Source: Nitratireductor basaltis (GTDB lineage: Bacteria > Pseudomonadota > Alphaproteobacteria > Rhizobiales > Rhizobiaceae). From it: a stretch of 64,000 nt of DNA. The notes under the pieces are model-generated. The model did no database searches, was not told the origin of the DNA, and saw only the letters and a list, made by a program, of their open reading frames with translations. The DNA is taken from the NCBI RefSeq assembly GCF_000733725.1, contig NZ_JMQM01000002.1, positions 434,001 through 498,000 on the forward strand, in the 5' to 3' direction. The position numbers and the translations under genes are program-made. Shown one piece after another: positions 53,515 to 57,123 of the stretch (position 1 is its first letter; the number at the start of each line of letters is the position of its first letter).

Positions 53515-53706
53515 TCGCCATATTCGGGCGCCAGCGATCTGGCGGGAGCTTCGAATTCCCGCCGGATCACACGCTTCCTATTTAACTTTTGCCTCTCCTG
53601 TTGCTGTCCCGTTTTGGGGCAAGTCGCTTCTTGGAGTTCGTCCTGTTCCACAATGTTTGGCGGACTTTCGGTGGAAAGCCTGTTGATAGCTGGTGGAAAA
53701 CACTAC

Positions 53707-53787
53707 ATCTTGTAGTGAACATACAGGGAACATGCGCGAACAGCCGATTCGTCGCCGATTCGTTCTTCCTTTGGCCGCTTTGTTAAT
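53707..53787. repeat. Duplicated 81-bp element, copy 1
   Basis: Aligns without gaps to 53978-54058, about 70% identical by my hand count, with a 24-bp perfectly identical block (53742-53765 matching 54013-54036). Both copies begin ATCTTGT and end TTGTTAAT at the same offsets. Confidence 0.75.
53717..53731. promoter_or_regulatory. SOS-box-like GAAC-N7-GAAC
   Basis: GAAC-ATACAGG-GAAC matches the alphaproteobacterial LexA site GAACN7GAAC (GTTCN7GTTC), and both arms are followed by A as in known sites. No LexA-regulated gene lies close by; the next gene starts at 54145. Confidence 0.5.
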
Positions 53788-53998
53788 CGGAACCGCTGGC
53801 GGCCTTCCGAATGGGTTAACCAGTTGTTAGGAAAACCTAACGCTTTCAAGGATTTCAGATTTTCTGCCCCGTCGCGGCAGACGTTCCGCCCGCAAAAGTT
53901 AACGACCAAAGGTCAATCCCGACATCTGGAGAACTTGCTCGATCAGCATCTGCTCCATATCTTGTGGACCCGTCCATATCTTGTGGTGAACAAAAGCG

Positions 53999-54043
53999 GA
54001 ATCCGGCCTGGAAGCCGATTCGTCGCCGATTCGTTCCAGACTC
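53999..54043. promoter_or_regulatory. Cluster of GANTC methylation sites
   Basis: GANTC, the CcrM methyltransferase site, occurs at 53999, 54017, 54028 and 54039; the last three are exactly 11 bp apart. Two more at 53746 and 53757 are in copy 1 of the repeat. Such sites are generally sparse in alphaproteobacterial genomes and concentrate in cell-cycle promoters. Confidence 0.7.
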
Positions 54044-54047
54044 GTTC
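54033..54047. promoter_or_regulatory. SOS-box-like GTTC-N7-GTTC
   Basis: GTTC-CAGACTC-GTTC, the reverse-complement form of GAAC-N7-GAAC, overlaps the third 11-bp-spaced GANTC site, 98 bp before the helicase start. Could be LexA-controlled or simply reflect the repetitive GTTC motif. Confidence 0.4.
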
Positions 54048-54144
54048 CAATTGTTAATGCTGCGGGTTTTTGCCTTTTGCTCTTTGGTCGCCATCCTATA
54101 TGTCTAGCGCGGGCGCGCGCCGCCTGGCAGTGAAAAGGCTTTGG

Positions 54145-57123
54145 ATGAATATTCAGCCATATGAGAAATCTCCCACCGCGCTGACGGGACGCGGCGTGAC
54201 CGCGATATTGGGTCCGACCAATACCGGCAAGACGCATATGGCGATCGAGCGGATGGTGGCGCACAGCACCGGGGTCATCGGCCTGCCGCTGCGGCTGCTC
54301 GCGCGCGAGGTCTATCAGCGCGTGGTGCAGCGTGTGGGTCCCGAGCATGTCGCGCTCATCACGGGTGAAGAAAAGATCGTACCGCCCAAGGCGCGCTATT
54401 CGGTTTGTACTGTCGAGGCCATGCCGCGCGAAACGACCGCGGCATTCGTTGCAATCGACGAGGTCCAGCTCGCCGCGGATCTGGAACGCGGCCACATCTT
54501 CACGGACCGGCTGCTTCATCTGCGCGGGCGCGACGAGACGCTGCTTCTGGGTGCGGGCACCATGCGCGGGCTGCTGGAGAAGTTGCTGCCGGGCATCTCG
54601 GTGATCACTCGACCGCGCATGTCGGTCCTCACTTATTCCGGTTCCAAGAAAATCACGCGCCTGCCGCGCCGGTCTGCAATTGTGGCCTTCTCTTCCAACG
54701 AGGTTTACGCAATTGGCGAGTTGATCCGCCGTCAGCGCGGTGGTGCGGCCATCGTCCTCGGCGCGCTCAGCCCGCGGACACGCAATGCGCAGGTGGCGCT
54801 CTACCAGTCCGGCGATGTCGATTATCTCGTGGCGACCGATGCGATTGGCATGGGGCTCAATCTCGATGTCGACCATGTCGCCTTTGCGCAGAACCGCAAG
54901 TTCGACGGTTTCCAGTTTCGCGACCTGTCTGCCGCTGAGCTTGGCCAGATTGCAGGCCGCGCGGGTCGCCATGTGCGGGACGGCACGTTCGGCGTCACGG
55001 GTCATGTCGACCCATTCGACGATGCTCTCGTGGAGCGTATCGAGACCCATCATTTCGAGCCGGCCAAGGTATTGCAGTGGCGTACGGCCGATTTTGATTT
55101 CTCGAGCCTGAAGGCGCTGCGTGTGTCGCTGGAGACGCCGCCCAACCGTGAAGGGCTTACAAAAGCGCTTCCTGCAGCCGACCAGCGTGTGCTTGAGCAT
55201 CTGGCAAATGACGAGGATGTGGCAAGGCTTGCCGACAGCCGCGCGCGGGTCGCGCTGCTATGGGAAGCCTGTGCATTGCCCGATTATCGCAAGATTGCAC
55301 CCGCTCAACACGCAGAAATTGTGGCTGCCGTCTATCAAGACCTTGCCCGGCAGGGGCATGTTGATGAAGATTACATGGCCGATCAGGTGCGGCGCGCGTC
55401 ATCCACCGAGGGTGAGATCGACACGCTGTCGCACAGGATTGCGCAAATTCGCACCTGGACCTTTGTCTCCCACCGGCCGGGGTGGTTGTCGGATCCGACA
55501 CACTGGCAGGAAAAAACACGGGAGATCGAGGACAGCCTGTCCGATGCGCTGCATGAGCGATTGACGAAACGCTTCGTGGACCGCAGGACTTCCGTGCTCA
55601 TGAAGCGCCTGAGAGAGAACAGAATGCCGGAAGCTGAAGTTAGTAACGCTGGTGAAGTCCTGGTGGAGGGGCACCACGTGGGTGAAATGCAGGGATTCCG
55701 CTTCACCGCGGACAAGACTGCCGAAGGTGAAGATGCGCGTGCGGTGAAGACTGCAGCGCAAAAGGCACTTGCTGCAGAGTTCGAAACCCGCGCGGAGCGC
55801 TTTGCATCTTCTGCCAATGGCGATCTGGCCTTGTCGTCGGAAGGCGTGGTTCGTTGGCTCGGTGCGCCGGTGGCCACCCTGGTTGCAGGTGATGATCCGC
55901 TTCGGCCGCGCGCGATACTCCTGGCAGACGAGCAACTGACCGGCCCTTCGCGTGACAAGGTTGCCGCACGTGTTGATCGCTATGTGAATTTCCAGATCGA
56001 AAGCCAGCTCAAGCCGCTTGTCGACCTGAAACAGGCTGACAACCTGACGGGCATTGCCCGCGGCCTTGCCTTCCAGCTTGTCGAGAATTTTGGTCTTCTC
56101 AATCGTCGCGATGTTGCAGAAGAGGTGCGCTCGCTCGATCAGGATGCGCGTGCGGCACTACGCCGGCTCGGCGTCCGCTTCGGTGCCTATCACATCTTTG
56201 TTCCGGCTCTCGTCAAGCCCGGTCCTGCAGGCCTTGCTACGCTTCTTTGGGCGCTGGCAAATGACGGCAAGGACAAGCCCGGCTACGGCGATGTCGTGGC
56301 TGCGCTTGCCTCCGGCAGAACGTCGCTGGTGACGGAACCGGAATTCGACCGCGCCTTCTACCGGCTCGCCGGCTATCGCAATCTTGGTCGTCGTGCGGTC
56401 CGCGTAGACATCCTTGAGCGTCTTGCCGATCTCATCCGCCCCGCGCTTTCATGGAAGATTGGTCAGCACGAGCGTCCGGAGGGAGCCTATGACGGTTCGG
56501 CCTTCCTGGTCACGCCCGCGATGATGTCGATTCTGGGTGCAACGCCGGATGACATGGAAGCGATACTGAAGGGCCTGGGCTATCGTGCGGAGGCCAAGCC
56601 TGCTGACGAGGTTGAGAAGCGGCTGGCGGAATTGGCGCCCAAGCCTGAACTGGAAGGTGCCGAGGCAAGTGCGGCACCCGCTCCTGCAGATACCTCAGGA
56701 GAAGCTGAATCCGCTCCTGCTCCGGCTGCCAGTGAGGCAGCGGCCGCAGCAACGGCGGCTCCCGCAGTCGCCGAAACCGGAACCGAGAGCGTGAATGCTG
56801 CGCCCGTAGAAACGGCTGCAGAAGCTGAGGCCGTGGTTGAAGCTGAAGCCGAAGAGCCCAAGCCCGTGTTGCTCTGGCGTCCCGGCCGCTCCGAGCGCCG
56901 TCGGCCCCAGCGTGGCAATGAGCGCCCCAACGACGCCAACAAGGGCAAGGGTGCAAAGGGTCGCGGACCTCGCCAGCGTCATGAGGGCGGACCGCGGAAG
57001 GGTGGCAAAGGCGGTGAAAACCGCAATGGCCCACGCCAAGCCCGACCTGAACGCCCGGCACGGATCGATCCCGATTCACCGTTCGCCAAGCTCGCTGCTC
57101 TCAAAGATCAACTCAAGAAATAG
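54145..57123 (+). CDS. SUV3-like superfamily 2 RNA helicase
   Basis: A 992-residue DExH helicase, homologous to the mitochondrial degradosome helicase SUV3. N-terminal motor: motif I ILGPTNTGKTHMAIERM near residue 23, motif II FVAIDEVQL, motif III/IV region, ATDAIGMGLNLDVD and GQIAGRAGRH (motif VI). The middle carries the helical part and a C-terminal tail (about 820-992) that is low-complexity: Ala/Glu/Pro-rich, then Arg/Gly/Lys-rich (RSERRRPQRGNERPND), likely RNA-binding. ATG at 54145 has AAAAGG upstream; earlier in-frame starts lie in the repeat region. In alphaproteobacteria its role in RNA turnover is not well known. The S4 protein is 9 nt downstream. Confidence 0.88.
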   Translation: MNIQPYEKSPTALTGRGVTAILGPTNTGKTHMAIERMVAHSTGVIGLPLRLLAREVYQRVVQRVGPEHVALITGEEKIVPPKARYSVCTVEAMPRETTAAFVAIDEVQLAADLERGHIFTDRLLHLRGRDETLLLGAGTMRGLLEKLLPGISVITRPRMSVLTYSGSKKITRLPRRSAIVAFSSNEVYAIGELIRRQRGGAAIVLGALSPRTRNAQVALYQSGDVDYLVATDAIGMGLNLDVDHVAFAQNRKFDGFQFRDLSAAELGQIAGRAGRHVRDGTFGVTGHVDPFDDALVERIETHHFEPAKVLQWRTADFDFSSLKALRVSLETPPNREGLTKALPAADQRVLEHLANDEDVARLADSRARVALLWEACALPDYRKIAPAQHAEIVAAVYQDLARQGHVDEDYMADQVRRASSTEGEIDTLSHRIAQIRTWTFVSHRPGWLSDPTHWQEKTREIEDSLSDALHERLTKRFVDRRTSVLMKRLRENRMPEAEVSNAGEVLVEGHHVGEMQGFRFTADKTAEGEDARAVKTAAQKALAAEFETRAERFASSANGDLALSSEGVVRWLGAPVATLVAGDDPLRPRAILLADEQLTGPSRDKVAARVDRYVNFQIESQLKPLVDLKQADNLTGIARGLAFQLVENFGLLNRRDVAEEVRSLDQDARAALRRLGVRFGAYHIFVPALVKPGPAGLATLLWALANDGKDKPGYGDVVAALASGRTSLVTEPEFDRAFYRLAGYRNLGRRAVRVDILERLADLIRPALSWKIGQHERPEGAYDGSAFLVTPAMMSILGATPDDMEAILKGLGYRAEAKPADEVEKRLAELAPKPELEGAEASAAPAPADTSGEAESAPAPAASEAAAAATAAPAVAETGTESVNAAPVETAAEAEAVVEAEAEEPKPVLLWRPGRSERRRPQRGNERPNDANKGKGAKGRGPRQRHEGGPRKGGKGGENRNGPRQARPERPARIDPDSPFAKLAALKDQLKK

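Follow-up and report, generated by a model that had tools for sequence, protein, structure and literature searches.

Background

The 630 bp that separate phaA from the gene of a SUV3-like helicase in Nitratireductor basaltis raise a simple question: what is this DNA for, in which one sequence occurs twice and no gene can be recognized? The stretch opens at 53515, directly behind the phaA stop codon, and closes at 54144, the last base before the helicase ATG, in the window (the whole stretch of DNA that was analysed, 64,000 nucleotides in length). An initial annotation had described it as a functional element kept by selection and had left its nature as regulatory, structural or an RNA.

The helicase has been named mgpS in S. 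meliloti (SMc03877), and Brucella mgpS is referred to as an ATP-dependent helicase, in the passages drawn on here from two sources (PMC4941405, PMC4070974). The protein is related to mitochondrial SUV3 and its role in bacteria is poorly known; the module described below offers a concrete handle on whether it belongs to a replication-stress programme. No published description of this module was found in the open-access literature, most subscription papers lying outside that scope. Its assembly, age and tie to the helicase gene appear to be new, while its component parts resemble known operators.

Results and discussion

Two copies of a module upstream of the helicase gene

The two ungapped 81-bp copies (53707-53787 and 53978-54058) and their common 24-bp block are present as first drawn, the copies being identical at 56 of 81 positions. 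The block is the longest exact repeat within the 630 bp, and the longest repeat in any of 1000 resamplings under a Markov-1 model of that sequence was 15 bp. The conserved units proved to be slightly wider than 81 bp and are given in Table 1 as copies A and B, with their scores under R1, a sequence-only model of the copies. The words GANTC and TTAA are concentrated in the stretch: there are six GANTC against 0.87 expected from the window, and five of the window's 24 TTAA fall here. Small open reading frames can be drawn, but what is conserved is the pair of modules, with poorly alignable sequence between them; no gene is supported. Promoter-like words stand at the place matching the putative helicase promoter in many aligned relatives, again as read by eye.

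By BLAST the stretch occupies one place in its own genome, where R1 gives two matches, copies A and B, and the possibility that the repeats were scattered low-complexity sequence can therefore be set aside. The triple of GANTC words at 11-bp steps in copy B also occurs at a single place in this genome. Two local peculiarities were noted: a 14-bp word, TCCATATCTTGTGG, is found twice, 19 bp apart (53954-53967 and 53973-53986), with no second copy seen in aligned relatives, and the phaB C-terminus, which lies between phaA and the module in many relatives, is absent there in N. basaltis.

Table 1. Features of the phaA-helicase intergenic stretch (positions in the window)
Feature	Position	Strand	Remarks
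Intergenic, putative control region, phaA / SUV3-like helicase	53515..54144	+	G+C 0.53, against 0.60 in the window
Module copy A (distal type)	53700..53790	+	R1 65.4 bits, E 1.2e-19 within the window, for a copy used in building R1
Module copy B (proximal type, adjoins putative helicase promoter)	53973..54060	+	R1 76.7 bits, E 3.7e-23 within the window, for a copy used in building R1
24-bp identical block, copy A	53742..53765	+	
24-bp identical block, copy B	54013..54036	+	
NrdR-type palindrome core CNANATNTNG, copy A	53703..53712	.	Core in 35/42 aligned copies
NrdR-type palindrome core, copy B	53974..53983	.	More at 53955-53964 (19 bp upstream) and 53920-53929
LexA-like GAAC-N7-GAAC, exact, copy A	53717..53731	+	Form as in own uvrA and ssb boxes
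LexA-like GAAC-N7-GAAT, degenerate, copy B	53988..54002	+	
LexA-like GTTC-N7-GTTC, exact, inverted, copy B	54033..54047	-	
YGATTCG twice, 11 bp apart (GcrA/CcrM-type), copy A	53745..53762	+	
YGATTCG twice plus GACTC, three GANTC at 11-bp steps, copy B	54016..54043	+	
TTAA closing copy A	53783..53786	.	More TTAA at 53816-53819 and 53899-53902
TTAA closing copy B	54054..54057	.	
Putative helicase promoter CTTTTG-N17-TATATG (sigma70)	54074..54102	+	Read by eye
SUV3-like helicase (DEXQc_Suv3, Helicase_C)	54145..57123	+	

Conservation and spread

A BLAST search of the stretch against 61 genomes, its own included, gave matches in 27, namely all 16 of the genus (N. basaltis among them), ten of the 21 further family members and one of 24 from other families, so that conservation in close relatives was found throughout the genus. 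The match fell in two places in 17 of the 26 matching relatives, and at all 27 BLAST loci examined the module lies directly upstream of the helicase gene. From these loci 42 of the 51 copies found were aligned at the family level; 20 columns show no variation and another 18 reach 90% conservation or more. R1 reached much further: of 297 genomes from the order 226 matched, and of 289 from the class 33, a matching genome having between one and five matches. The 33 include three from the own order and several weak matches; the second matches in G186 and G157 are also weak. The core of the module thus persists in distant members of the class, and the view that a functional element is kept here by selection is well borne out.

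In 24 loci, the own one included, where a core word picked out two copies, the distance from copy to copy is 243-283 bp, and in 16 of them it is 271-274 bp. Spacings of 263, 271-274 and 282-283 bp in close relatives suggested helical phasing, with R 0.71 at a period of 10.5 bp, neighbouring periods being no less sharp; in other genera they range over 202-281 bp and appear unphased by eye. The copies are also of distinct types: among 18 loci paired in the alignment, TTTGGCC occurs in ten A copies and no B copy, exact GAAC-N7-GAAC in 11 A and no B, and AGA(C/G)TCGTTCC in no A and 14 B. Occurrence of the element on phages was considered and rejected, the 76 phage records retrieved at E 0.07 over 33% of the query being taken as chance.

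Association with the helicase gene

The helicase gene adjoins the module in 56 of 59 fetched loci, comprising all 30 best-scoring loci of the order and 26 of 29 from the class; one of the three exceptions (L134) is a weak match and perhaps due to chance. The neighbour on the opposite side differs by lineage and may be phaB, an acyl-CoA dehydrogenase, a HAD hydrolase or a flavin monooxygenase gene. Starting from the helicase instead, 61 of 80 named helicase loci (the best 80 among the matches listed) carry 102 R1 matches, every one upstream of the gene and on its strand. Sinorhizobium meliloti and Rhizobium leguminosarum are among the species with the module at the helicase (loci L149 and L154). 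The remaining 19 gave no R1 match even at E 10; since loci of this kind, which include Aureimonas, Jiella, Fulvimarina, Pseudovibrio, Methylobacterium and Xanthobacter, do without the module, so evidently can the helicase.

Two further observations concern the helicase genes themselves. Jiella avicenniae has two SUV3-like helicase loci (L167 and L207), both without the module, and the helicase of genome G026 (L022:1720-3066) appears as two separate, overlapping match pieces in different frames, which may reflect a frameshift or a sequencing error.

Module layout and NrdR-type boxes

Over 46 matches from the class, the module reads C-N-A-N-A-T-N-T-N-G, N4, GAACRAA, N4, GAA and N15 in its 5' part, followed by GATTCG(G/T)NC, N2, GNTTCGTTC, N7, GTTC, N6 and TTAA. 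The words GAAC-N7-GAA and TTC-N7-GTTC are mirrored around model position 49.5. Conservation is highest in YGATTCG with the GNTTCGTTC block that follows it, and conserved and free bases alternate.

The 5' palindrome has the fixed bases of the NrdR box consensus. Its exact core CNANATNTNG is present in 35 of 42, 78 of 102 and 30 of 46 copies of the family-level, named-locus and class-wide alignments, and 91 of the 102 named-locus copies hold at least five of the six fixed bases. Among these 91, a second palindrome lies upstream at exactly 31 bp in 38 and at 32 bp in 11, that is, at either distance in 49 of 91 copies and 43 of 57 loci; other spacings between 15 and 89 bp average 0.34 and never exceed 7 (a first count of partner spacings took in 84 rows). 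The spacing of NrdR boxes is given as about 31-32 bp in the part of PMC2892513 consulted. In a further locus set, which overlaps partly in families with the named loci, 18 of 45 have a partner at 31 bp, the mean over spacings being 0.5. The window copies have no partner box at 31 bp, the best candidate being a palindrome with four of six bases at 30 bp from copy B.

Boxes of the same type occur at expected genes of N. basaltis. Upstream of nrdJ two boxes with six and five of six fixed bases stand 31 bp apart, and nrdA has a box whose 31-bp partners reach just four of six. A cobalamin riboswitch (RF00174, 124 bits; L220:809-1024) precedes the second ribonucleotide reductase gene of this genome, taken for nrdA, and an NrdR-type box overlaps its start.

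LexA-like, GcrA/CcrM-type, TTAA and DnaA words

The sequence GTTC-N7-GTTC is named as the alphaproteobacterial LexA motif in the section of PMC3323433 used here. In N. basaltis the form GAACAAAnnnnGAAC is carried by uvrA, ssb and a DNA-repair radical-SAM gene; LexA-like boxes lie upstream of two radical-SAM genes (L223:1546-2772 and L224:1593-2747), one of which belongs to a DNA-repair-linked family. The module shows that form, in most copies with a weak second half. Within it, exact GAAC-N7-GAAC was found in 12 of 42, 2 of 102 and 1 of 46 copies of the three alignments, and either this or GTTC-N7-GTTC in 36 of 42, 58 of 102 and 19 of 46. Because the exact left repeat is rare beyond the first alignment, LexA binding appears plausible for some copies of the module and doubtful for many.

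The hexamer GATTCG is nearly universal (42 of 42, 99 of 102 and 45 of 46 copies) and fits YGAKTCG, described as an extended GcrA/CcrM motif; according to the same portion of that source, this motif was not detected in B. subvibrioides (PMC7987155), which warns against over-reading it. Across two alignments with 88 copies, the free position of GANTC is always T in this word and a pyrimidine (C or T) stands before it; recognition by CcrM alone is accordingly disfavoured.

Around 85 copies, 55 TTAA fall in bin 80-89 of the model positions and 52 in the bins 61-80 bp upstream. Outside the modules TTAAC or GTTAA occurs 128 times against 18.4 expected, in 43 of 61 loci. The CtrA box is TTAA-N7-TTAA, and just two full boxes were found around the 85 copies; with full boxes nearly absent, CtrA binding at the module is no more than a possibility. 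In some genomes of the genus tandem CTGTGGA words precede copy A, a lead that pointed to a cluster of DnaA boxes. TTWTNCACA boxes are enriched (9 against 0.8 expected) yet confined to seven of 61 loci, so that such a cluster is not a general feature.

A proposed composite regulatory module of the helicase gene

Conservation, spacing, orientation, adjacency to one gene, agreement of motifs, and NrdR- and LexA-type boxes at the expected genes of the own genome are all direct observations. On balance, and with moderate confidence, we take the module, duplicated in tandem, to be a composite cis-regulatory element that serves the gene of the SUV3-like helicase. Judging from its motifs, the helicase promoter is most likely coupled to dNTP level and to replication or methylation state, and perhaps to the SOS response. 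Each copy offers, at fixed spacing, an NrdR-type box, which is often paired in tandem, together with LexA-like repeats, YGATTCG once or twice and a TTAA; copy B lies directly upstream of the putative promoter and copy A about 270 bp higher. NrdR would read the ATP/dATP state at the module. Methylation of GANTC by CcrM, read by GcrA, would report the passage of the fork at an origin-proximal place, and LexA would add a DNA damage signal in part of the copies. The two copies, in the same orientation, might form one nucleoprotein complex that sets helicase expression. Which proteins bind is deduced from the motifs alone, and the direction of control and any looping between the copies are likewise inferences.

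Copies away from the helicase gene

Among 26 genomes picked for having matches, several have further copies elsewhere, and nine such loci in eight genomes were examined (L248, L281, L284, L285, L286, L288, L289, L290 and L291). The helicase gene is absent from all nine. At five of them the copies are flanked by convergent genes, where a promoter is not expected, in three independent arrangements: between transketolase-like and acyl-CoA dehydrogenase genes (L281); between DUF3108 and Exo_endo_phos genes (L290 and L291, one arrangement in two genomes of one genus); and between GST or a cupin-like frame and a conserved gene of 74-77 aa (L285 and L286, again one arrangement in two genomes of one genus). 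The match at L288 is weak (22.5 bits). By genome, away copies lie near DUF3108 genes in G063, G123 and G086, by the transketolase-like and acyl-CoA dehydrogenase genes in G101, and beyond GST in G071 and G230.

Departures from the usual order were seen with other copies as well. Genome G386, 93% complete, has the module and no helicase that could be found; there the module sits between an acyl-CoA dehydrogenase gene, a divergent neighbour at several other loci, and a LolA-like gene. In L151 and L156 (the second from Ciceribacter) an inserted gene block separates copy A from copy B, and copy A, now flanked by a YunG-like gene and a small gene convergent with it, has its motifs intact in both. 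Together with the away and convergent copies, these cases count against a pure promoter role. In G532 the module and the helicase gene are 4.7 kb apart.

A DUF3108 gene recurs beside the array with or without the helicase (L283, L248, L290 and L291). It precedes the second array in G063, G123 and G086, and in G145 the array at the helicase; DUF3108-array-helicase may be an older gene order that was split later, module copies being kept on both sides. Genome G145 also has a copy (L284:2967-3040), closely similar to one at the helicase, among phage-type genes (capsid, connector and tail completion), possibly a prophage or a gene transfer agent cluster.

Chromosomal position and a possible autonomous site

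In all 24 genomes measured, which are those with parS among 25 searched (21) and three others, the distance between parS and the main locus is 33-990 kb, with a median of 0.12 of half the chromosome; these genomes are related, and their positions are not independent observations. In N. basaltis parS is 247 kb away on the same contig, with hemE and parS at 247-255 kb. The strand of the module relative to the origin, assessed by eye, is mixed (15 of 24 co-directional).

The stretch is not oriC itself, since hemE and parS are about 250 kb off in the own genome and the window has no skew switch. In 20-kb samples with small counts, KOPS-like words of G004 switch strand between about 1.88 and 2.42 Mb, an interval that contains hemE/parS (2.08 Mb) and excludes the element (1.84 Mb); in G011, sampled likewise at 20 kb, there is no clear KOPS-like switch near the element.

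The copies outside helicase loci in several families, five of nine of them between convergent genes, the helicase-free genome G386 and the origin-proximal position would all be accounted for if the module were an autonomous chromosomal site for replication or chromosome control, for which the helicase gene is ancient company only. The module also had no match in 72,556 plasmid records, in one blastn query of limited reach. This explanation we regard as possible and no better than tentative: a site of that kind leaves unexplained why one gene adjoins it class-wide with a constant strand relative to the helicase, its strand relative to the origin is mixed, DnaA boxes are rare around it, and the relatedness of the 24 genomes weakens the positional argument. 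The evidence on a regulatory or a structural role is mixed, with the regulatory role favoured.

Other explanations

Plain control by several SOS and dNTP operators, with NrdR and LexA as sole binders and the GATTCG core lying within their sites, would suffice for the NrdR spacing and the LexA-like repeats. It is nevertheless improbable, for YGATTCG and the GNTTCGTTC block, the most conserved part of the module, are explained by neither known site, and most distant copies lack exact GAAC-N7-GAAC.

An intergenic stretch conserved on one strand could also be transcribed as a leader or small RNA, and this was one of the natures first proposed for it. That part of the proposal found no support. The stretch has no match in Rfam, tRNA and Rfam searches were equally empty at 13 and 12 other loci, and none of six predicted base pairs showed two-sided change, for which reason we read the module as DNA. 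The alternation of conserved and free bases and the 31-bp dyad spacing are as in protein-DNA contacts, the position upstream of the putative promoter also speaks against an RNA, and a conserved RNA is very unlikely here.

A mobile, MITE-like repeat inserted twice is hardly credible: despite the several copies and the dispersed one by phage-type genes in G145, the own genome has a single locus with no dispersed copies, the A and B types differ consistently, and class-wide synteny with the helicase contradicts it.

Implications

Replication origins and RNA genes apart, it is unusual for some 84 bp of non-coding DNA to have 38 positions at least 90% conserved at the family level and a core still present in distant members of the class. 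The module unites predicted sites of NrdR, LexA and GcrA/CcrM, systems that have mostly been studied separately, and possibly informs how alphaproteobacteria read fork passage. A bolder proposal, which we think rather unlikely, is that the module serves the whole class as an autonomous checkpoint site, an origin-proximal array where the passing fork, the supply of nucleotides and damage to DNA are sensed together. If so, its GANTC sites would become hemimethylated at fork passage, operators for the dNTP sensor NrdR and LexA-like repeats would stand beside them, helicase control would be one output, and convergent or helicase-free arrays would have a direct effect on replication or on the handling of the chromosome.

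Comparison with known systems

Like NrdR operators, the module has the same fixed palindrome bases and, in about half of its copies, a partner at 31-32 bp. It differs in that the partner is missing in the other half, the window copies included, that no ribonucleotide reductase gene lies beside it, its neighbour being the helicase, and that the palindrome is embedded in a larger conserved block. Alphaproteobacterial LexA boxes are matched by GAAC-N7-GAA on one side of the module and GTTC-N7-GTTC on the other; in contrast to them, the left repeat often ends in a half-site other than GAAC, and the module has two inverted-order repeats around a different core. With GcrA/CcrM promoters the module shares one or two YGATTCG and dense GANTC, whereas it has T alone at the K position and, at distant loci, stands at no recognisable promoter.

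Among chromosomal sites, the alphaproteobacterial oriC at hemE/parS is likewise intergenic, AT-richer and provided with TTAA and GANTC words, but the stretch is far from hemE/parS and no skew change crosses the window. Sites that act in replication or chromosome control include datA and DARS of E. coli and crtS of Vibrio; to our knowledge, no datA or DARS sites have been described for alphaproteobacteria. The module resembles these sites in being non-coding, in its conserved chromosomal place and in clustered binding sites, which in its case are predicted, and it departs from them in having DnaA boxes at few of its loci and in being tied to one gene in most genomes.
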